NCBI GenBank assembly: GCA_900074885.1
Contig: FJUW01000049.1
Span: forward strand, 117,748-181,747
DNA: 64,000 nt
Source: Rhynchosporium graminicola
Lineage: Eukaryota > Ascomycota > Leotiomycetes > Helotiales > Ploettnerulaceae
Direction: 5' to 3'
Position numbers and translations under genes: made by a program. Under the pieces are notes generated by a model. That model ran no database searches. It was not told the origin of the DNA and worked only from the letters and a program-made list of their open reading frames with translations. Positions 34,771 through 59,908 of this stretch are shown here, piece after piece (position 1 is the first letter of the stretch; every line of letters starts with the position of its first letter).

Positions 34771-35845
34771 CAACCAAGCAGGGTAGGTGTGTGAAGTTTT
34801 CCGAGACTTAGTTCAGCTCGTTGACTTATTAAGATTAAGGAGATGATCTTGAAACTGTATAATTAATTTGAATTCCTAATCTAGGTAATTAAATACATCC
34901 ATGTGTTAGGTATCAAATTTTTTATTTTTTATTGAAAAGAGGACGAGAGTTATAAAGCAGGCGCATGTCAACCAAACCAACTTTTGTTACTTTGTCTGCA
35001 TACAAATAGGAATATTGAAAAACAGTCAGTTAGAGTCGGACTAGAACTATTAACTATAGGGTAGGTACACCTGTCGCACGCGTAGCCAGTACTGTAAAGT
35101 GGTCCGACATAAAATGTGGTTCGGAAGCTACACTTTAGTCGAGGACTCCAAATCTCGCTTATTCGAGTGTCTCGCTTGTTCGAATTCTCGCTTGCTCGAA
35201 CACGCGAGACATTCGAGAAAGTAAACAAAGGAGGTTTGTGCTGAGTTTAAGCCACGCTTGTAGTACGATCAAGCTACTCTAATGCGCAGACTTCTAAATC
35301 TCGTGCGGCGTAGCTGTTACGTGCACAAAGAATGAGAAAAATGAACATGGATATTAGGGAACCAGATGAGCAGAATTCAACACTTGACCAGGAGCACAAT
35401 CTACATATTATATATCCTCTGGTTTTCAGCGGAGGTCTTGTTAATAGTTTATTGATACTGCTTTCGCACTCTCATTTGAACCACTATGTGGTTGCCCTGT
35501 CAGTTCCTGAGCACGCGTTAGGACAAGGAGCAAGCTATCCCGGTTTAATTCTCTCGAGGGGGCGGTCAGCACATAAATAACGCGATATTTCCCACGATTA
35601 ATCTTCCTTACCCCCTGAAAAACGCAACTATAATCACGACCACGTCTCTGCTCTCATTGCAACAGCTTTCAACATGTTCAGCAATCAGATAGACTTGAAA
35701 CTTTTACGATCTCGTATGTTGATCTCCTCTAACTCATTTTGCGCCACCCTGTTAAGGATATTGATTCTTTCTCATCATTTGAAGGAATTGAACTGACTTA
35801 CATCGATTTTTAGAACTCTCTTCTCACAGTCGACATACTCGCCTC
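34771..35845. other. Spacer with a short TCTCGCTT tandem repeat
   Basis: At about 35150-35200 three imperfect copies of TCTCGCTTNTTCGA are followed by a partly inverted copy (TCGAACACGCGAGA). No gene is seen. Confidence 0.4.
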
Positions 35846-35937: not shown

Positions 35938-36503
35938 ATGATGCCTGCTGCAGTTCTCCAATTCCGTCGTTCTGCTCGTGATCTCAAGCTTGCCGTCGCT
36001 GGTCCCGTCGCTCGTACCCAAGCCCACGTTATGTTTTTGAGATATATGATTTCCTCCGTGGAGGATGGGTCAATGCCGTCATCGATACAAGACCTTATAC
36101 CGCTATCTACGCTCGCGCCGCCTGTCTCCTCTCTGATGCACCTGATGCAATCCCAGCCCGAGCCTCCATTCTGATCTACCATCCTCTCGGTAGACTTGGT
36201 GCCCTCTTCCGCCATGGTCGATCTCTCCCCTACCGACCAACTGGTCGATCTCACCTGGAACGCCGCGTAGGCACTGTTACGCAGAAGACGAAGTGGGAGA
36301 AGATTAAGGGCAACCCAGCTGCCGGCATCGATCTCTGGGTCTGGGATAGGGAGTTCAAAAACGTTAGATGTTGGGGGAAGTTGAAGGGTGATAGGAAGCT
36401 GGCGGACAAGTGGACGAAGAACGGGGTGGTGAGGGATCTGGTGATTGATAAGTTGATCGAGAGGGGCCTTTTGGCTGTCGACTTCCAGGATATCAATGCT
36501 TAG
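35938..36503 (+). pseudogene. Paralog 1 of a three-member family (GNP-A-I ... RD-V-ID ... F-D-N), one frameshift
   Basis: From ATG 35938 the frame has good fungal codon use to about 36030 (FRRSARDLKLAVAGPVART). After a run of five T the coding signal moves to the next frame and stays open to the TAG at 36503, so one base appears missing in the T run. The C-terminal domain reads KIKGNPAAGIDLWVWDRE, then VVRDLVIDKLIERGLLAVDF and QDINA. It aligns with the genes at 39027-40033 and 56119-57857 and is preceded by the same kind of short Gly/Arg block (LGALFRHGRSLPYRPTG). Assembly error and true loss of function cannot be separated here. Function of the family unknown; no signal peptide. Confidence 0.6.
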
Positions 36504-39026: not shown

Positions 39027-40033
39027 ATGTCTCCAACTACACCACTCCGCGCTCGTGCTGCCTCCAAGGCAAGCCTCTCTGCTCACAAGACTGCCGCTAC
39101 GGCTGTCAAGAAAGGTAAGTTTGCTTGTTATGACTTCAAGTCTTGTTTACTCTGTGACGAGATGAGATGAGGCTAACTCTGAGTAGTCACTAAGGGTACC
39201 GCGGTCAAGGTCGAGAAGACCAAGACCACTGCCGTCAAGACTCCTGCTCGCAACACTGCCGCTCGCAATGTTGCCATCACAGAGGAATTTGAGGATAGCT
39301 CTTCAGACGACGATGAAATTCCAGCTGTCGCCGTTCATAAGGCCGCTGTCCCCAAGATCGCCGCTCCCAAGGCTGCCGTTCCCAAGGTCGCCGTCCCCAA
39401 GGTCGCTGCCCCCAAGGCTGCTGTTTCCAAGGTCGCCGTCCCCAAGGTCGCCGTTCGTAAGGGTGTCGCTCAACGAGTTGTCGCCAACAGTAAGTACTAC
39501 TCTCATGCCCCCACTATCTTCCTTCAAGACATACCAAGTTCATCTCGCGTCATTACTTATCCTCTCTCATCCCTCATCCCTCTCATCCGATCTTACATCC
39601 TTCTCATCCAATCTCACGTCCCTCTCATCTCATCTGAACCATCATAACTAACCTCGTCCCCCTAGCCACCGTCGCCAACCCCCTCACCACCACAGCCGGC
39701 TTTCGACACAATCACGCTCCGAACAGCCTGGTTTCCCGATGGGGTCGCCCTGTCAAGTACACTCCAACTGAGCAGCCCGGCACGGTCCGAGTCGGAGAAG
39801 TAACTTACAAGGCCAAGCACCGTTTCTACCGAGGCAACCCTCCAGCTAGTATCTCTGCGAGAGAGTGGGACTTAGTATACAACCGAGCCGACTCCAATGC
39901 CGGTAAGGACTATGCTGGCGCGAAGGAGTACAGACTGAAACTTAGGCAAAATGGTATGACCAGAGATGTCGCAATCGACTATCTCGTCAAGAAGAAGGAC
40001 TTGCGTAAGAGTTTCCGTGATATCAATCCATAG
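39027..40033 (+). CDS. Paralog 2: Lys/Ala/Val-repeat protein with conserved C-terminal domain, 252 aa
   Basis: Three exons, 39027-39114, 39187-39489 and 39666-40033, with introns GTAAGT...GAGTAG and GTAAGT...CTAAC...CCCTAG; codons rejoin cleanly. The N-terminal 130 residues are basic and repetitive, with about seven pentapeptide-like units of the type AVPKV/AAPKA/VAVPK after an acidic patch (EEFEDSSSDDDE). The composition resembles linker-histone-like or nucleic-acid-binding tails. The C-terminal domain has FYRGNPPASISAREWDLVYN, then NGMTRDVAIDYLVKK and FRDINP, shared with the genes at 35938 and 56119. No signal peptide, so nuclear or cytosolic is likely. Converges on MET6. Function unknown. 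Confidence 0.8.
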
Positions 40034-46892: not shown

Positions 46893-47042
46893 TGCGTGAG
46901 CCAAAGTACAGTGATAAGTAGTAGTATTATCTGTTATATCGTAGCTATCTTTCCTAGGTAGTCGAGACTCCGTAAGGGAGATATATCTAGCCGGCTAAAC
47001 CCCGGTGCAGATACTTGACTAATACGTGACTATAGACTAATA
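46893..47042 (-). repeat. Outer 150 bp direct repeat, left copy (LTR-like)
   Basis: Nearly the same sequence recurs at 53701-53850 in the same orientation. On the minus strand the right copy begins TGTTGGTCCATAGTCACG and ends CACGCA, i.e. TG...CA termini as in LTRs. Both copies are preceded on the plus strand by the same six bases, GTAGTC, so the real repeat may be 156 bp. The left copy carries more transitions than the right. Confidence 0.7.
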
Positions 47043-47325
47043 CTAGGATTACTTTAAAGTAGCTCCAAATTATCTACTTCTCCGTATAAAAGTAACGCTT
47101 TTTGCCTTCTAGTAAGAGTAGTACTATAGTACTGCTCGTGCAGAAGTATTATATAATATATAGTTTTCCACGTGATCAGGTCCAAAGATTCTACTTTCAG
47201 CTTCAAGTTATCCAGATTCCCTCTATCTACTTATTCGATAGGCTTAATAACTAATCGATTTATATATAATAGCTCCTTAAGAGCTCCGTTACAATTTATC
47301 TTAGTTATCGTATCCGTAGGGTTAT

Positions 47326-47823
47326 TATAACGTTCCTAGTTCTGACTAGTACGCGGTATACAGGCTCGTCAGTTAGTATTAGCTATAAAGTAAAGTAAAT
47401 AAGAAGTTCGGTTCTTAATTAGAATTAAGATATTATAAGTAAGTATTAATTACTATATGAATTTAAGCACGAAGCTCCTATCTAATAGCAGAAGTACTAG
47501 TCTTATATAGAACCTTTATTCCCTTATACTAGCTATATAAGACTATCTTACGGAGCGTATAAGCTCTCGCGACCTATCTAGCAGTTTAGCATATCACGTG
47601 ATCCTAGATCACCTATAGCTATAATACTATTATTACTTTAATACAGGTAGATATATAGTACTACTTGCTATTTCGTACTATAACTATATTAGTGCCTTTC
47701 CTCTAATAGTACTAACTCTTTTCTAGTACTAAAACTCGTCTAATATATACTACTAAGTAGTAATATTAGTATTCTAGTGCTAGGACGGTTTTTTAGTACT
47801 AAGAACTATATCAGTTCGTAATA
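47326..47823 (-). repeat. LTR of the Gypsy element, left copy (3' LTR)
   Basis: 498 bp, matches 53118-53613. The element-sense start TGTCACAAACC has become TATTACGAAC here. The element-sense purine tract AGAAGGGGGATAG lies directly before it (47824-47836), which fixes this copy as the 3' LTR and the element as minus-strand. Confidence 0.85.
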
Positions 47824-50800
47824 CTATCCCCCTTCTGCCTTAGCGTATCCTTACGCTTAATTATACTTAAGGAAATATTAATAAGTACCTATAGCTATCT
47901 GCTTCTTTTATTATATCCCCCGAACGCTTAACTAAATAAGTCGATTATATTATACTTAGAAAATTAATAGAATTAAGTAGTAAAATTATAATACTATATA
48001 CTAGATATGAAAAAGTAGAATATAAAGAGTATATATTACCTCGCGATCCTAAACTAACTAGATATAGTTATTACGCTTAACTAAATAAATCCTACGATAT
48101 TCGTATAAGGAACCGGATACTTATAGCTTCCGAATAGGAAAGTCTAGATTTATAAATCGAAAAGTTAGAAGATAAGAAAGACTTAGCTATAACTAAGTTC
48201 TATATACGAATTATAAAGTTAAAGAAATAGAAATATTTCTTATACGAAAAGTAATAAAAGATAATTACTACTAGTCTGAACTTAATAGCTAAGCTTAATA
48301 CTCTTAAAGCTCTAAAGAAAAAAGGAAAAGAGAAATAGAAAAGAGAGAAAGCGCTTAAAGACGCTAAGCTAGTAAGCGCGGAACTCTCTAGTTCTAATAT
48401 CCCTATTGATTCCCCGTTCGACCTGATAATCGACTTTCCTTTTGATCCTGCGGACTTACTCTAAGTAAATCTAGGTCTTATTAATAGAAATTAGCTAGTA
48501 ATACTAAGTAATAAAAGCTTAACTTAAGTTCTTATATATTTTCCGAATATAAGTAGTTCTTTTATTTTATAAGATATCTAATAATACTTTATTTATATTA
48601 ATAATCTAGTAGTTCCTCTATATCGTATTCTATAATTAAGTTAACTAGTTTTGTATATATCTTTAGGGCTAATAGTACTCTTAGTAGTACTTTTTCTAAT
48701 AAGGATATATAGAGTATTAGAAATATTTTCTTTATTATAACTAGTAGCTAAAGTTTATAAGCTAAAAGTCCTTTAACTTATTTAATTTTAAATAGTCTAA
48801 GTTTCTTATAGTCTAGCTTATCGCTTAGTTTCTATATATTAATATTTTTCTATAGAAAGTAAACCTTATCTCCCTCCTATAGTATTAGCTTCTAAGTATA
48901 GTTCTTATTATAATAGTACGTATTTTTCTTAGCTATAAATTAGAGTTCTTCTGCAAGTTCTTTATATAAGTCCTAGATATTCCGGACTTAGATATAAGCT
49001 ATATTATTATCCTTAATAGTAATATTAAGCTCTCTATAAGCGATAAGTTTATAATTATAATTTGCGAAGAATAATATAACTTTTATTATTTCTATAGTTA
49101 AGCTATGATATAAGAACTCTATAAGTAGTAATAGTTCTACTTAATTATTTCATTAATATTTAATATAATAATATAAATATACTTTAATTACTTAATTTAT
49201 CTTTTTATTTCCTCTATTAATCTAAAGATAGAAAGCTATTAATAATTTCCTTTTTATTCCTAGGAAACTTATTAAAGTATTCTAGAACTTTAATATAAAT
49301 AACTTATCTCGATCTAATATTATTTCTTCGGGTACTCTATACTTAGAGACTATTTCCTTAAGGTATACTTATACTAAGTATTCGGCTCTAAAAGTAGATA
49401 AGACTAGTACTAAGATTATATACTTAATAAGTCTTTCTATAATAATAAGTATTATATTATAGCTAACTCCTATAACTAGGTCCTTCGATAGTAGTAATAG
49501 CTCTATGAAGTACTATAATATTAATTTCGAAGAGGTTAGTAGTATTAGTACTATAATTATCTACTTATAAAATATATATCAAGAAGACTTATTCCTAATA
49601 TAAGTATTATAGTTAGCTAGTACTTCTTTAACTACTTAGCGGAATCCTTCCGATTAGTAGTTTCTTAAAATCCTTAGATATATTCTTTATATCCCTTAGT
49701 ATCTATACGCAGGAAGCTCGTATTATTCTTTAATATATACTTTTATTAAGCTTAGTAGAAGCTAAATTTTCCTATTAACTTATGTAATACTATTCTTAAT
49801 TCTATTTCTAGTAATAAGTTCCTTAGTTATATCTAAAGATAATCTATCTTTCTTCTAAGCTTCTTTTAAAGTATTATACTAAAGTCTCTTAATTTCTTAC
49901 TTAATTATAGTAGCTTCTCGAATATTAATAACTATATCTCTATTATCTAGCTTTATGAGTAAAGTAGTCTTATTATAGACCTTATTATCCTTATAACTTA
50001 GTGATCTACTTAGAGTATCTACTTATATATTATCTTTTCCTTATATATACTTAATAACTAAATTAAAAGAGGCGAGTTCCTCTGACTATCGAGCTAATTA
50101 ATAATTATCTAAGACCTTAGTAGTTATAAAGGTTCGAAGATTCATATAGTTAATATAGATAATAACTAGGAACTTAGCTCCTTATAAGTATATTTTCTAT
50201 TATTTAAGTACTTTAATAATTATTATAAGTTCTTTCTTATAAATCTTATAATTCTATTTAGCTAAAGATATTTTCTTTAAAAAGTATATAACTAAGTATA
50301 GTTATCCTTTATTATCTCGCTATAAGTATACTACGCTAGTATAAGTATTAGAGGTATCTATTTCTATTATGCTTTCCTTCGCTTTATCGAAACTATATAG
50401 AATTAGTTCTTTTATGAATTCTTTCTTAATTCTCTAAAAAGCTTTCTTATACTAGCTAATCTAAGTAAAAAGAATACCTTTTCGAGTGAGACTTATAAGT
50501 AATTCGGCAATTTTAGAGTAATTCCTAATAAACTATTTATAAAAGTTAGCGAAACCTAACTATAATTATATATCTTTAATATTCTTTAGCGATTCCTATT
50601 CCTTTATAGCTCTAATTTTCTCCGGGTTAATACTTATCTTTCTAAGCGAATAATATACTTTAGAAAAGTGACTTACTTAACTAAGAATTTATATTTCGAT
50701 ATCTTTAGTCTAGAATCTATCTTATATAATACTTCTATAACTTAGGTAATATAGTCTTAGTGTGCCTCGATAGTCTCTAAGTATACTAGAATATTATCTA

Positions 50801-53117
50801 AGTAGTATATAGCGAATTTCCTAATAAACTCCTTAAGAATATTATTATTCTACTTTTAATATATAGCTAGAGTATTAGTTAAGCCGAATAGTATTACTAT
50901 ATATTCCTATAGCTCTAAAAGTAATATAAAAGCGGTTTTCTATTCGTATCCTTTCTTAATTCGGATTAAATTAAATACGTTTTATTAATCTAATTTAATA
51001 TATATCTTTACTCTAGTAAGCTTATCCTATAAGTACTACGCGTTTAGTAAAGGATATATATCTCATATAATTCTATTATTAATTATCTAATAGTCTTTAT
51101 ATAATCTTCCCTTAGGATCTCCTACTTTCTTAACTACTAATATATTAATAGTATAAGGTAATTTAGACTTCTAAATCTATTCTTTCTTTATACTTAACTC
51201 TTAATACTCCTTAAGTATCCTTATAGTATTATAGTTATAATAGTAAAGTTTCTTTATAATAAGTATAAATCTATCTTTAAAGTTTATTTTATAATCCTAG
51301 AGTTTATACTTAAGTAGAGCTCTTATATCCTACGATCTCCTCGAATAATTTCGAGAACTTCCTATATAGTTCGGGTAACTATTTCTAAATATTATCTATT
51401 TAATTAGAATAATTCTTAGGTTCTAACTATCTAGGAACTTAACTTAATTAGCTAAAGTCTATTAGCGTTATTATTAAGGAGGCGGTACTAGCTTCTTATT
51501 TACCGGCTAGTTAACTATATTTATTTATAGTTATTAAATATAACTTTCTAAGTTACTTAGTTTATACTAGGATTATAATTATATAGCTATAATATTCCTA
51601 ATATAATATTATATTATTTAGTAAGTATAATATTAAAGTAAAGCGTTTCTTCGTATCTATTAATAATTATCTTTATTCCTCTTATCTTTCTGCGGACTTA
51701 TCTATCTAATCTAGCGCTTTTTCTATTTAATAAAGTAAAGTAATATAGTTTCAAGTTAATAATAATAGGAATATTCTATTTCTCGATGAAGGCTAAGTTT
51801 ACAAAATATTTTATAGCTCCTGAATTAATAAGTGCTTTTATCTTAATATTATCTACTATAACTAGTATAATTAACTAATCGAATTCTCTAGTAATAGTAA
51901 GCTCTAAGTATAGTAATTCAGTTATAAAGTAATTATATACTTCTTTAATAATTCTTCTTATTATTTTATTTAACTAGGTCCTAAGGCTAAGTTCATAGGT
52001 AATTAGAGTATAGGGTATATAATAGTAGAGATTAGCTTAGCTTTAGATCAGATCTAGTACTATTCTCTAATAAGTAGCTAGTTCTAATAAGTATTATCTT
52101 CTCTATTAATAGTATTCCTCTTCTGTTTCCTTAGTAATAGCTTAAGTGTTTTTTATTCGAAGGAACTAATCTAGTTATTTAAACTCTTTTAGTTCTATTT
52201 CTCCTTCGAGGTTAGCTATATAATAATCTAATCGTTCCTTAATATCCCTTATATTTACTTAGAATACGATAGTAACAATATCGTAATAAGTAATAATATA
52301 GTCTATACTCGGGTTAGATATATTATAAGTTCGATAATACTCTATAAAATCGGACTTAGTTCTATTATAAGCTTATATTCTTCTTTTATTATTATGATTT
52401 CGAAGAGTCTAGTTCTCGTTATTATAAAAGAGATTATTATATAGATAGTTTCTTTTATTTATAATACTCTAGCTTTCTTAGTTTTTATCTAGAAGTTTAA
52501 CTAAGTTCTCTTCGAACTTTTCGCTAGATTTATAAGCTATAAAGTCCTACGAACTCTATTCCATACTAGAATGCTTTTAGTAATCTAGCTTCCTTTCTAC
52601 TAGTCCGAATTCTCTCTTAGGTTTATTCTAAGGTTTCCTTTCTTATTTCTTCTTCTAAGAATAAATATAAGCGAGATATCCTAGCTTATTATACGTATAA
52701 TATAAGCTCTTCTCTTAGCGTTTATCTTTCTTAGCTTAGCCCTTAGATCCTCTTTCTACTTTATCTATTTCTATCAGATTATAGTAATTATATTTATTAT
52801 TCGGGTAAGGTTAGAAATTTCCCTAATATTTACCTTATTATTATAGAAATTAGAGTTTATAGAAGTAAGTAGGTATAAATTATCCTCCTTTCTCCTTCGC
52901 TTATTCCTAGATTCTTTTATTAATAGTAGTAGACGATTTAATCAAGTCCTCTAGGTTATTATAGTTTCTATAATAAGTATTAGGCAAGTTAACTCAGGGT
53001 AGAGTAATTTTATCTATTTTCTCTATCTTACTAACTTAGGATCCTTCTCTTATAACTAATCTTTCTTTAGGGGCTATTTCGTTCTTACTAATAATACTTT
53101 AAGTAAGGTGCTTAAAG

Positions 53118-53613
53118 TATAACGTTCCTAGTTCTAACTAGTACGCGGTATATAAGCTTATTAGTTAGTATTAGCTATAAAGTAAAGTAAATAAGAAGTT
53201 CGGTTCTTAATTAGAATTTAGACGTTATAAGTAAGTATTAATTACTATAAGAATTTGAGCACGAAGCTCCTATCTAATAGCAGAAGTGCTAGTCTTATAT
53301 ATAACCTTTATTCCCTTATACTAGCTATATAAGACTATCTTACGGAGCGTATAAGCTCTCGCGACCTATCTAGCAGTTTAGCATATCACGTGATCATAGA
53401 TCACCTATAGCTATAATACTATTATTACTCTAATATAGGTAGACGTATAGTACTACTCGCTGTTTCGTATCATAATCGTGCTAGCACCTTTCCTCTAATG
53501 GTACTAACTCTTTTCTGGTACTAAAACTCGTCTGATATACACTACTAGTTGGTACTATTAGTATTCTGGTGCTAGGACGGTTTTGGTGCCAAGAACCACA
53601 CTGGTTTGTGACA
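53118..53613 (-). repeat. LTR of the Gypsy element, right copy (5' LTR)
   Basis: 496 bp. The outer end keeps the canonical element-sense TGTCACAAACCAGTG. Less mutated than the left LTR in its last 150 bases. No clear 5 bp target duplication flanks the pair. Confidence 0.85.
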
Positions 53614-53700
53614 TTAACTGCTTTTAAAGAGTGAAATGATCTATACGTCTATTAATCAATATTAGTATCACTCTGTCGTAGTACGTACAATCAAGTAGTC

Positions 53701-53850
53701 TGCGTGAGCTAAAGTATAGTAATAAGTAGTAGTATTATCTATTATATCGTAGCTATCTTTCCTAGGTAGTCGAGACTCCGTAAGGGAGATATATCTAGCC
53801 GGCTAAACCCCGGTGCAGATACTCGACTAACACGTGACTATGGACCAACA
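53701..53850 (-). repeat. Outer 150 bp direct repeat, right copy (LTR-like)
   Basis: Partner of 46893-47042. It abuts the broken FAD-monooxygenase coding sequence directly at 53850/53851. Confidence 0.7.
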
Positions 53851-55054
53851 GACATTTTTGGTGATATAACATCGGTGATACATTGCACGAAAGGATGTTC
53901 AGTTTTGCGAACGAGCTCCGAGAAAGCGGGCGGAAGTATAGAGGTAGCTGTCCCATTGATCTGGGACTGGAGATGGGGTTTTATTTTTCCGACGGGCATG
54001 GAGAAGTGATGTTGGTGGCCGGAGGTGTCGTTCATTAGGTCGAGATATTCGGGTGAGTCGAGGGGATAGTTGTAGTACCAGACCCAATTCATTAGCCTGG
54101 AACCTGGTGAACTGGAGCCGTTCTTTCCTGGGATAAGTTTCTCTTAGTGCATAACTCTTCTGACGAGCTGAGGAAAATAACCTACGCCAAAATCTGACAG
54201 CCAGGAGCATGAAAGAACGTGAAGTTATCCACGAAAGTCTCCTTCATCAACCCGGAAGCTTCATTCTCAGGTACCGTCCCCCTCCAAGCTACGTATCCCG
54301 CATACTCCCTCTCCACATCCGGCAACAACAGCTTTCGAATCGTAGAACTCGGTCCATCAGCCGCAAGAACCAAGTCCGCAACCTCTTTCTGCTTCCCATC
54401 ACTCCCATTGACTTCATACTCGACCTCAATTCCCTCTCCAAAATCTTTCACACCGACCACTTTCCTCGCATACAGATACTTCGCTTCTCCTTCCCCCTCC
54501 TCCTTCTTAGGAAGTTCGCAGTACTGACTTTTGACCCCATCGAAACAAGCTCGTAGAACATTATACAGTAGATCCCAACTTACCATCTCCTGACGTCTGT
54601 CGTTCTCATCAATAACTTTCCCGTCTTTGGCTAGTGTTTGCCGGTGATGGCTGGGCACAGAAAGAGGACGATCAATGTTGACGTGCTTGGTGAAGAACTC
54701 TTGGGCTTCGGGACCGAAGACTATTCCAGCTCCTGGAAGGGTATTAGATTTCAATTTGTAGTAGTCGTAAATCAAACAAAGAAAAAGTTAACATGATGAA
54801 AGATGCGATCAGGATACAAGGGCGAGCTAAAATTAGAAATGGCTCACTCCCAAATCTTGCAACATTGCAGTAGGATTCCGCTCGAAGATTTGAACATTAT
54901 GACCCAGATGCTTCAACATCACGCCGCTCATAAGTCCTCCTAACGAGCCACCAACCTAGCAATGTGACAATAAGCACATGTAAAGATTCAATTACATTAG
55001 GAGATGGCGGGGTAAGCGACTCACAATGATCACGTTCTTCGCTTTCGTTGGCAT
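53851..55054 (-). pseudogene. FAD-dependent aromatic monooxygenase, 3' part lost at the repeat
   Basis: Exon 1 (55054-55025, MPTKAKNVII) joins exon 2 (from 54955, VGGSLGGLMSGVMLKHLG) to make the FAD-binding GxGxxG start. Later blocks are FGPEAQEFFTKHV, the DG motif (LVLAADGPSSTIRKLLLP) and MNWVWYYNYPLDSPEYLDLM, as in the 2,6-dihydroxypyridine hydroxylase/salicylate hydroxylase-like group. The reading ends at VISPK, then runs into the 150 bp repeat. The GD motif and C-terminal FAD-ribityl site (normally next) are missing. The exon 2/exon 3 junction (GT at 54847, AG at 54733) does not keep frame, and a TAG sits where Tyr would follow QILA near 54185. So the gene is dead by more than one lesion. 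Confidence 0.8.
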
Positions 55055-56118
55055 GATCAATAGACTCTAGGGATTATCTGGGGATGATTTATGAAGCTTC
55101 AAATATTCTACTTATTATGTAAGGTAAAAAATCAGACTCTCGCAGACATGCCCAAGAGATATAATTCAGATGTACCCAGCCTTGCCCAGAGGGAACCAAG
55201 CTACGTCATGAACTAGAAAACCACGTGATATATCATCTTTCCACTCTTCCTTTCGCCCGATTCAAGAAAGAACAAGAAATTCTGATCTATTATACGGTAA
55301 TGGAGATATTGGACAAATTTTCTCGTGAATACAAAGGTTTGGCAATGCGTCGATGTGTTGTCTCCACCAAGCTCGCCTAACTCCACTAGCTAGGTCGAAC
55401 ATCAACAAGACGGTAATAAGCCTTGAATTATTCAGTATCTATAACCTTGACCTCTTTTGTTGAACTTCAGCATTCAGGCAACTACTGAGCTTAAATGGGA
55501 GCTTGATGGAGTAAACAATATAGGCCGTTTTAACATTTAACAGAGCGGGAAGCACCTTCGCAGGACCTGAGGAAATTTGTAATCTCCACGACGACGTACG
55601 TTCTACATCAACGCGACGCCTGTTCATTTCTGGCGAAGCAGTTTAGTTCTCTGAATCTGCTGTAAATTCATCACAAGATCTTCCAAGAGTAAAGTCATCA
55701 AGTGATTAGGGCCAGTTTTCTGAACCAAGAATATCAAGAAAGCAATATCGTCTATATCTTCCTGCCATCAACTCGGGGAAATTTTCTATTAGGGATTGGC
55801 GATTTAGAGCCAGCCACTTCAGTAGAGTCCTTCGACTTTGCAGTTACATGATTTGTCTTTTGCTATATTGAAGTTGAGTCTGGCCTGCTCTGGTCAAATA
55901 CTGCCAGGAAAATTGAAACTCGAAACAAGCTAGTCCAGATTCGTAAAGACTTACTCTCGAGAGGGCGGTGACAGTGATAAACGCGAACTCGCCCACGAAT
56001 CCTTTTCTTCTTTCAAAACAAAGGGCAACGCAACCTCTTCTTCGATCACCACCGTCCAGCCTTGTTCTGGACCCAATACCTACACACAATACCCACATAC
56101 TGGTATCCAATTTGCAAG
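55055..56118. other. Intergenic between divergent pseudogene and paralog 3
   Basis: No gene seen; probably holds the paralog 3 promoter near its right end. Confidence 0.45.
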
Positions 56119-57857
56119 ATGGTTCGTATCATTCACACCACAGGGGCAAAGAAAGGCACCTACGTAAGAATCATCTTCTTTCTTTCTCTATCATCTCACA
56201 AGTGCTAACCTGGATTTATCAACAGACCGACACTACTACTGGTGAAACTTTCACAACACCTCGCACAATCCATCGCCTCCCCATCAGAAACCGCGCAGAT
56301 GTAAGATCGTTCCATTCTCTATGTGGTATGATACTCTGCTGACGTTTACATCTCAGTATTATCCTCCTAGCAACATCACTCCCGATGTTGTAGTAAGAAT
56401 TCCCGTTCATGTTTTGTGTATTTGTATTGACATTGAATTCCTAGGCAACTCCTCCTCCTACCACCACCAGCTCTGACGTCGCAGTAAGTAATCTCCTTCA
56501 ATACCTCTAAACATCTTCTAATAAGACTTCCCAGGCACCTCCCTCTACGAGCACTTCTGCCGTCGCAGTAAGCCTACCTTCTTCGATTTCATTTAGGAAC
56601 CTCCTAACAAGACCTCCCAGGAGACTCCATCTACTAGCACTCCTGCCGTCGCAGTAAGCAATCTTCTTTGAAGTCTCCCACACACCTCTTAACAAGCCTT
56701 CTAGGCAACTCCCTCAACCAGCACTCCTGCCGTTGTAGTAAGCAACCTCCTTTGATGTCCTCTAAACACCTCCTAACAGGATACTCTTAGGCGCCTCACC
56801 CTGCTCCTGCTACTCCTGCCGTCACAGTAAGTAATCTACCTCAATGTTCTCTAAAAACTCCCTGACAAAACTACCCAGGCACCTCCCTCAACCAGCACTC
56901 CTGCCGTTGCAGTAAGCAACCTCCTATAATATCCTCTAAATACCTCCTAACAAGACCTCCCAGGCACCTGTCTCTACTAGCACTCTTGCTGTCGCTGTAA
57001 GCAACCTCGTTTACTATCCTCTAAACACCTTCTAACAAGACCTCTCAGGCACCTCTCTCTACTAGCACTCTTGCTGTCGCTGTAAGCAACCTCGTTTACT
57101 ATCCTCTAAACACCTTCTAACAAGACCTCTCAGGCACCTCTCTCTACTAGCACTCTTGCTGTCGCTGTAAGCAACCTCGTTTACTATCCTCTAAACACCT
57201 TCTAACAAGACCTCTCAGGCACCTCTCTCTACTAGCACTCTTGCTGTCGCTGTAAGCAACCTCGTTTACTATCCTCTAAACACCTTCTAACAAGACCTCT
57301 CAGGCACCTCTCTCTACCAGTACTCCCGCTATCGCCGTAAGCAATCCCCTTGAATTTCCCCGGTACTTGTACTGACATCCATAATTTAGGCTCCTGGACC
57401 CCTCACCACCAGCTCTGCTGTCCCCGTAAGCAGTCCTCAGCCAATGGTCTGTGAGTCTTCACTAACATTTGCATCTTAGGCTACTCTTCCTGCCACCAAC
57501 ACGACCGTCGCCACGACCGTCGCAGCCGCTCCAGCTACCGTCCAACACCCACACGCTCCAAATGCTGTCCTCAACCGCCATGGCCGCCCAGCCGGTATTT
57601 ACGCTCCGACAAGACCTCAGCCATCCGTCATCAACGGCAGCAAAGCCAAATGGACTTTGGTGCGCGGAAATCCTCCTGCTGGCATCGATGCTCTGAAGTG
57701 GGATCTTGCATATAACCGTGCTGACTCCAACGTTGGTACGCTCAAGAACATCCTGAGAAAGGCACTCAGAGAGAATGGGATGACTAGAGATGTTGCGATT
57801 GACTACATGATCAGAGATGGGGATTTGACTCTGGGCTTTGTTGATAGTAATCCTTAG
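56119..57857 (+). CDS. Paralog 3: 16-exon gene with an array of 33-39 nt micro-exons, 313 aa
   Basis: Exons as read: 56119-56163, 56226-56300, 56357-56392, 56445-56483, 56535-56567, 56621-56653, 56705-56737, 56791-56826, 56879-56911, 56964-56996, 57049-57081, 57134-57166, 57219-57251, 57304-57336, 57390-57425, 57480-57857. Every exon is a multiple of three and every intron is phase 0, opens with GTAAG and ends AG; nearly all have CTAAC or CTGAC near the 3' end. Exons 4-15 encode degenerate 11-13 residue units of the type APPSTSTPAVA. The last exon carries the family domain: LVRGNPPAGIDALKWDLAYN, NGMTRDVAIDYMIRD, FVDSNP, matching the genes at 35938 and 39027. No signal peptide or Kex2-type KR sites. 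The Ser/Thr/Pro units suggest a disordered linker. Function unknown. Confidence 0.82.
56445..57389 (+). repeat. Tandem exon-intron repeat array (~85 bp unit)
   Basis: Each unit holds one micro-exon and one 51-53 nt intron. From 57049 to 57303 three units are exact 85 bp copies, and the unit starting at 56964 differs only in its exon. Upstream units are older and differ at several positions but keep donor, branch site, acceptor and exon phase. Confidence 0.9.
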
Positions 57858-58593: not shown

Positions 58594-59908
58594 TTAAAGC
58601 TTCGACTTCGGCCCCCGAGCTACAGTTTGATGACAAGCAGCAAAAGCACTAAGCGTGTCAGTTTCCAAAGCTAATGCAAACGCTGCAATTATTTCTGCCA
58701 ACGCCCATTTTTTCTCGTCACCATAGCAGCCGATGAGCTCCAAAGCCTCCTTTTGGCTGGTATATCCTGTCCCCACCTCCAACACATCCCAGCAACGGCG
58801 ACGAGAAGAACAAAGAAAGGCCAGGTCAGCTGTATCCTCGTTATACTCGGCGGTCAGATGAGAGAATCCAGTTTCTAGTGCCGAACCAATATCTTGTCCA
58901 CAAGCAATGAACATTGCAGGAACAACTTTGGGAAGGTTGAGACATCATCCCATTTCCGTTCCTCGCAGCACCTTCCTCCATCTTCGATAGAACACCCTTC
59001 AATCTCTTCGTTGAACAGCCTAACATCTTCACACTGACTTCGTTGGAGATCGTTCCCCAAGCAATTACAGATATTCCTCAAGGCCTCTATACGGGTCCCC
59101 ACGACAGCTTCTTGTCTGATGACATGTATCCTTCAAGCTGGACATCGATGACTCCACCTGACCAGTCCTCGGTCATGAGTGCCATTCATTCCGCGCGGGT
59201 TCCGATGTGGCCATATTTTGTCAGGCAGCGTCATCACAGATATACGTGAATTTGACATGAACCTTACTACCCATGATGCGTGGACTGCCGGACACTAGTT
59301 CCCCATGACTGCTAGCTTTTTTCGCTGCTGTCTGGAGATGTGTGAGCAATGTTGGTACCTGTCGAGAGAACTTCAAAGCTTGAGCAATATTCGAAAATGT
59401 GAAGACTGCTGCTCGGAAGAAGCCTTCTTGTAGTGCTGACGGTGGAGATACCTCCACAAGCTGAGAACACTTTACAGCCGTGCGAGCAAACGGCAACAAT
59501 TAAAGGTTCAAGCGTAGCAAGGGGAGCAGAGAAAGTCTTTTGGGTTTGATAAGTACCAATGAGAGTGAGAGGACCTGCGAGGCTGATAGGTACGGAAACG
59601 AAACCAACGCAGTTTTCAATCTTGGTATTAGAGGTCGCGGCTGGGGATTGGGAGACATTTGGGAGGGATCTGATCTGCGCAGCCAGGTTTGCATCGGGTT
59701 TGATCCCCTCGAGGGACCCAGAAGGTTCGAGGCATGAGGATGCTGCTTTTTCTTCTTTCAGTGACAGAGTACGAGATGGTTGGTGGATGAGATTGACAAT
59801 AATTGGCTCTTTAGTGGTCCTCGATGAAATAGACATATCGGAACTCGAATCTTGTTTCTTTTCTTTTTTAATGTGAGAAAGAGAGACACACCGTAAGTTC
59901 GGTACCAA
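58594..59908 (-). pseudogene. Class I HMG-CoA reductase paralog (catalytic domain only), frameshifted
   Basis: Blocks in order on the minus strand: IENCVGFVSVPISLAGPL, APLATLE, SHGCKVFSACGG, then in another frame EGFFRAAVFTFSNIAQAL and KVHVKFTYICDDAA, then QNM after a TGA, VQLEGYMSSDKKLSWG with two stops, and finally MFIACGQDIGSALETGF, TGYTSQKEALELIGC, KKWALAEIIAAFALAL and CHQTVARG. All four catalytic residues (Glu, Lys of SDKK, Asp of GQD, His) can still be read. Length equals a bare catalytic domain (about 430 codons); there is no N-terminal membrane domain, so this was a short soluble paralog, not the sterol-pathway enzyme itself. At least three frameshifts and three stops show it is dead. 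Likely start MSISSRT at 59836. Confidence 0.85.

Follow-up and report, generated by a model that had tools for sequence, protein, structure and literature searches.

The DNA analysed here, a 64,000-nucleotide stretch of the Rhynchosporium graminicola genome (the window; C101:117748-181747; the genome totals 55.3 Mb in 121 contigs), carries a gene that appears to have grown by repeated duplication of a short exon together with its intron. We put a probability of about 0.85 on the following reading, which is drawn from the DNA sequence: gene A would be a coding gene whose product contains repeats of 11-13 residues rich in proline, serine, threonine and alanine, each encoded by one micro-exon. 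The repeats would derive from a tandemly duplicated exon-intron block, the introns would be spliced out, and the repeat region would form a linker before a C-terminal domain. Two striking features distinguish this array: its scale (twelve micro-exons in 981 bp) and the presence of exact recent copies.

Structure of gene A

The model of gene A runs from ATG to stop on the + strand (56119..57857) and comprises 16 exons and 15 introns, with a spliced coding sequence of 942 nt. After removal of fifteen GTAAG...YAG introns from the + strand, the frame stays open over 313 aa. Unspliced, all three frames across the gene are interrupted by stops, as a sequence-only reading of this DNA had foreseen, and no long stop-free frame crosses the array on either strand.

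The anatomy can be read off the sequence itself. Exons 1-3 (56119-56163, 56226-56300 and 56357-56392; span 56119..56392) enclose introns 1 and 2 of 62 and 56 nt, and are followed by intron 3 (56393..56444; 52 nt, phase 0), which is diverged from the array introns. The array (56445..57425) consists of twelve micro-exons, exons 4-15, with lengths of 39, 33, 33, 33, 36, 33, 33, 33, 33, 33, 33 and 36 nt, and of introns 4-14, which measure 51-53 nt, close to the 52 and 54 nt of the flanking introns 3 and 15. Beyond intron 15 (57426..57479; 54 nt, phase 0), exon 16 (57480..57857) opens with a stretch that we read as unit-like, ATLPATNTTVA, and continues into a C-terminal domain common to two paralogues; all these features lie on the + strand. 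Much of this layout had been recognized in the sequence-only reading, and its twelve consecutive micro-exons of 33-39 nt with short introns (51-54 nt for introns 3-15) are borne out by our model. Its unit size of 80-88 bp needs correction, since exon plus intron measures 84-90 nt.

Every exon of gene A is a multiple of three and all 15 introns are in phase 0, so that what had been claimed for the array holds for the entire model. The exon-length variants (39, 36 and 36 instead of 33 nt) differ by threes, and the array intron lengths (51, 52 and 53 nt) by ones. The proposed splice signals were also recovered: all 15 introns begin with GTAAG, which was our own search term, and end with YAG. The proposed branch sequences, CTAAC or CTGAC, occur in most introns but not throughout, the exceptions being intron 3 (TTGAC), intron 4 (CTAAT) and intron 6 (TTAAC). 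As expected from the proposed APPSTSTPAVA-type repeat, splicing would yield one peptide of 11-13 residues per micro-exon, in order ATPPPTTTSSDVA, APPSTSTSAVA, ETPSTSTPAVA, ATPSTSTPAVV and APHPAPATPAVT for exons 4-8, then APPSTSTPAVA, APVSTSTLAVA, three times APLSTSTLAVA, APLSTSTPAIA and APGPLTTSSAVP for exons 9-15.

Similarity among the units and origin of the array

With gaps scored as mismatches, introns 4-13 are mutually 56-100% identical. The earlier description of the introns as near-identical is apt for introns 10-13 (100%); comparisons within introns 4-9, or of these with introns 10-13, fall at 56-88%, and introns 14 and 15 lie lower, at 33-58% against introns 4-13. Intron 4 is 81% identical to introns 9-13, and intron 8 reaches 56-73% against the rest of introns 4-13. 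The lowest pairs among the array introns are near background, because the diverged intron 3 itself reaches 39-55% against introns 4-13; it is 62% identical to intron 14. Intron 15, at 33-54% against introns 4-14, is not clearly related to the array introns. Exons 5-7 and 9-14 are mutually 67-100% identical, exons 4, 8 and 15 reach 42-64% against the other array exons, and exon 3 reaches 39-56% against the array. The candidate descent of exons 4, 8 and 15 from the common array unit thus rests mainly on their position and, for units 4 and 8, also on their introns.

For most units, joint duplication of exon and intron is nonetheless apparent from the sequence. A complete intron has been copied with its flanking exon in the case of introns 4-13 and of exons 5-7 and 9-14, the case being weaker for exons 4, 8 and 15. 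The copies are adjacent and in register at an 85-bp period, and the genome matches listed are confined to the array. Tandem Repeats Finder reports a period of 85 with 10.4 copies, and scores of 810 at period 85, 938 at 170 and 971 at 255. No difference separates units 11-13, and a single exon base sets unit 10 apart from them. Most of units 10-13 falls within a 347-bp stretch of exact 85-bp period (56971..57317, + strand), made up of unit 10 minus its first 7 nt, units 11-13 and the start of exon 14. Such exact periodicity indicates that the expansion, or homogenization, was very recent. Comparing the units, as had been suggested for ordering the duplications, places units 10-13 latest but does not resolve the older order, the tree supports ranging from 0.005 to 0.996. 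The tree also groups intron 3-exon 4 with intron 14-exon 15 (support 0.983). We do not claim a chimeric origin for intron 14, with an array-like 5' half and an intron-3-like 3' half; judged by eye, the part beyond the shared signals is too short.

These comparisons give good support to tandem duplication as the way in which a phase-0 exon-intron unit was multiplied. In the mechanism that we favour, a block of about 85 bp, consisting of a symmetric (phase 0-0) exon with a whole short intron, would have been duplicated in tandem several times, with units 10-13 arising in the latest rounds. Each copy would add one intron and about 11 residues and keep the frame, because a full set of donor, branch site and acceptor comes with the block and its exon length is divisible by three. 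Intron definition is the usual mode of splicing for short fungal introns, and it would remove each of these introns. The repeat would then act, most likely, as a flexible linker joining a short N-terminus to a conserved, partly helical C-terminal domain. The sequence-only reading had presented the array as intron gain by segmental duplication. The multiplication of a phase-0 exon-intron unit stands, but it is best read as the propagation of a pre-existing intron and not as the creation of introns from other sequence.

Exon skipping is rare among fungi with short introns, and it is the step required by a first alternative, compatible with tandem duplication, in which the array would serve as a splicing length switch. 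Symmetric micro-exons would be skipped in frame, giving a family of linker lengths. Exon lengths in multiples of three and phase-0 introns throughout would permit this, and since introns 10-13 are identical nothing in the sequence tells them apart; given the rarity of skipping, we regard such a switch as unlikely. Assembly offers a second alternative, and the exact copies could partly reflect assembly error. That units 10-13 as a whole are an artefact of a shorter array, as the identity of units 11-13 and the single differing exon base of unit 10 might suggest, seems to us distinctly improbable: the contig is 362 kb long, and the diverged units stand at any number of exact copies.

To look for the resemblance to exonic sequence expected if introns had been created from it, we also compared an array intron with four targets from the rest of the gene or from the paralogues. 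For the whole intron, 55, 67, 48 and 133 of 300 shuffles reached the observed score; for its 3' half the counts were 17, 18, 254 and 47 of 300, uncorrected, which is borderline for two targets. The whole intron has no significant match and its 3' half gives an uncorrected borderline signal; we do not propose that the array intron derives from these sequences.

Constraint on the spliced frame and on splice signals

A constraint on the spliced frame is visible in the differences between units. For a set of six units (5, 6, 7, 9, 11 and 14), pooled pN/pS comes to 0.29 when the spliced frame is read and to 2.05 and 1.15 when the frame is shifted. Units 4, 8 and 15 were left out of this set for their length, units 12 and 13 as copies of unit 11, and unit 10 as one base away from it. 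The ratios become 0.33 (shifted frames 1.50 and 0.82) with all nine 33-nt units and 0.52 (shifted frames 1.25 and 1.29) with the twelve units, each represented by its last 33 nt. The spliced frame gives the lowest ratio in all five unit sets tried, with a strength that drops once the set takes in the diverged units 4, 8 and 15. The p-values that follow are guides, because the units share descent and the tests are not independent: in the six-unit set, variation affects 9 of the 11 columns at codon position 3 and 7 of the 22 at the first two positions (one-sided Fisher p = 0.009), and amino-acid differences from the consensus number 9 against 15.3 in simulations (p = 0.003). Translation of the spliced frame is thus supported by pN/pS, and these comparisons lend indirect support to the predicted splicing of the micro-introns; expression of gene A is likewise a prediction.

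The splice signals point in the same direction. Across introns 4-9 and 11, none of the 5 donor columns is variable, compared with 24 of the 30 non-signal columns that precede the branch site (p = 0.0014). This test is partly circular because GTAAG was the search term, a circularity softened by the tiling of the array without a missing unit. Branch-like motifs are present in 15 of 15 introns when the pattern is loosened to take in the CTAAT of intron 4. An ordered donor-acceptor-donor pattern, GTAAG-N44..52-AGGC-N26..38-GTAAG, which covers GTAAG donors and exons starting with GC only, has 11 matches in the window, all inside 56393-57430, against a mean of 0.04 in shuffled sequence. A strict intron pattern has 20 + strand matches in the window, of which gene A accounts for 14, and 5 matches on the - strand.

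These results bear on a third alternative, in which the array would be a non-coding minisatellite within one long intron from exon 3 to exon 16 and the short introns would go unused. The exon 3-exon 16 junction is also in phase 0, and the circularity of the donor test weakens one argument against a single long intron. Such an intron would nonetheless leave the consistently lowest pN/pS of the spliced frame, the branch-like motifs of every intron and the excess of ordered splice signals without a reason, and we judge it very unlikely.

Distribution in the genome

The last alternative, independent insertion of introner-like elements into a repeated exon, draws on a named model of intron gain (excerpts of PMC4974935) but is scarcely credible here, since two array units searched against the 55.3-Mb genome gave at least 6 matches, those listed from the best-scoring candidates all falling within the array, the whole array as query matched only itself, and the intron position is constant across units, as co-duplication predicts. 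Among these 6 listed matches there was no dispersed near-identical intron in another gene, and this confinement to the array makes dispersed introners unlikely.

Genome-wide, the donor-acceptor-donor pattern matches 58 times, 11 of these in the array and 47 elsewhere, and a reversed control pattern matches 50 times. Reading through the list, no two of the 47 outside matches lie within 1 kb of each other, and the genome therefore holds no second micro-exon array of this strict type (GTAAG donors, exons starting with GC).

Relation to known systems

Runs of short symmetric exons are familiar from animals. Collagen genes, with their repeated 54-nt symmetric exons, are the textbook case; as in gene A, repeated short symmetric exons encode a repeated peptide, but their introns are longer and not known to be near-identical, and the peptide is different. 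The micro-exon genes of schistosomes and the bicycle genes of aphids belong to secreted animal families, and share with gene A small symmetric exons arranged in runs; to our knowledge, they are not built from identical exon-intron units that were duplicated recently.

Excerpts of PMC4974935 separate the creation of introns by tandem duplication from the multiplication of pre-existing introns. In the Rogers-type model of the first sort, exemplified by 24-bp repeats in fission yeast and by the potato RdRp, new introns arise from exonic AGGT-containing sequence (PMC4974935, in excerpt). Tandem duplication increases the intron number of a gene there as it does here, but complete introns are copied in gene A. 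The second sort, to which the gene A array belongs, is represented in the same excerpts by Arabidopsis TOUCH3 (Knowles and McLysaght, 2006) and by Gao and Lynch (2009), with a pre-existing intron multiplied together with its flanking exon inside one gene. The statement in the sequence-only reading that no described family is built in this way was therefore too strong, because duplication of whole introns with flanking exons had already been described (TOUCH3; Gao and Lynch, 2009, via excerpts of PMC4974935). Two duplications are cited there for TOUCH3, in contrast to the twelve micro-exons within 981 bp and the several exact copies of gene A.

Few gained introns still have an identifiable source sequence, according to the excerpted text of PMC4974935. 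In gene A, source and copies stand side by side in one short gene, from diverged to identical, so that one can study directly in which order the units were duplicated, how selection acts on splice signals and what follows for protein length. We tentatively propose, at somewhat less than even odds, that the array is an active exon-intron minisatellite whose unit number, and hence intron number and linker length, varies between strains, and in which in-frame skipping might in addition produce linkers of several lengths. If true, gene A would be a natural system for watching introns multiply singly.

Paralogues and the C-terminal domain

Two paralogues lie on the + strand of the same window. Paralogue B (39027..40033) has three exons, the acceptor of exon 2 being ambiguous by 3 nt, and its domain (near 39668-40030) is 52-53% identical to that of gene A; the domain of paralogue C (36156..36503) is 37-39% identical. 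Against the array model stands the fact that paralogue B contains no such array and that its introns are in phase 1. The region upstream of the domain is repeat-rich in both genes A and B, and of the two only A has introns in the repeat. Growth ahead of the domain may thus take either of two forms in a single family, by exon-intron units (A) or by repeats inside an exon (B). The repeat of paralogue B is a 15-nt tandem repeat of VAVPK type (39327-39456), wholly in exon 2, in a stretch rich in lysine, alanine, valine and proline that we take to resemble linker-histone tails.

No Pfam or NCBIfam family was found above cut-off for A, B or C (0 families for gene A), and paralogue C has one Pfam match below cut-off (E = 0.13). 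Gene A, the only one compared with the PDB, has no significant sequence match there (best E = 0.73). A model of the C-terminal domain from three sequences is weak, at a mean pLDDT of 57, and places three helices in the second half of the domain; a fold search with this weak model gave a best match of E = 6.1. Broken fragments of the family domain also occur on the - strand of another contig (L006, C78:47649-50801), where the + strand carries a frame that we read as retropepsin-like. Upstream of gene A, bases 55954-55969 agree at 15 of 16 positions with 35551-35566 upstream of paralogue C (E = 0.19, alone not significant).

Genomic setting

Upstream of gene A, the region 47230-53830 is AT-rich (GC 0.268) with indices resembling those of repeat-induced point mutation (RIP): TA/AT is 1.57 and (CA+TG)/(AC+GT) 0.19, against 0.72 and 1.24 for bases 1-46000. 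Direct repeats 94% identical lie near its edges (358 bp at 47326 and 53118; 141 bp at 46900 and 53708), and the two are in mirrored order. The interval 46900-53848 is probably a mutated, RIP-like LTR retrotransposon. The array itself has a GC of 0.493, a TA/AT of 2.77 (72 TA against 26 AT) and a (CA+TG)/(AC+GT) of 0.87. Its TA/AT is raised in part because the recurring GTAAG, CTAA, CTAC and TAG contain TA, and we therefore do not read this ratio as repeat-induced point mutation. Relative to the unit consensus, C>T is the commonest difference (49 of 144) and G>A accounts for 5. Past exposure of the array to the process is possible. In a genome of this type, genes could grow by short internal duplications, tolerated as too short to reach the length threshold of the process. 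Gene A is flanked on the - strand by an FAD-binding-like frame (54182-54775; PF22607) on one side and an HMG-CoA reductase-like frame (59312-59908; PF00368) on the other.
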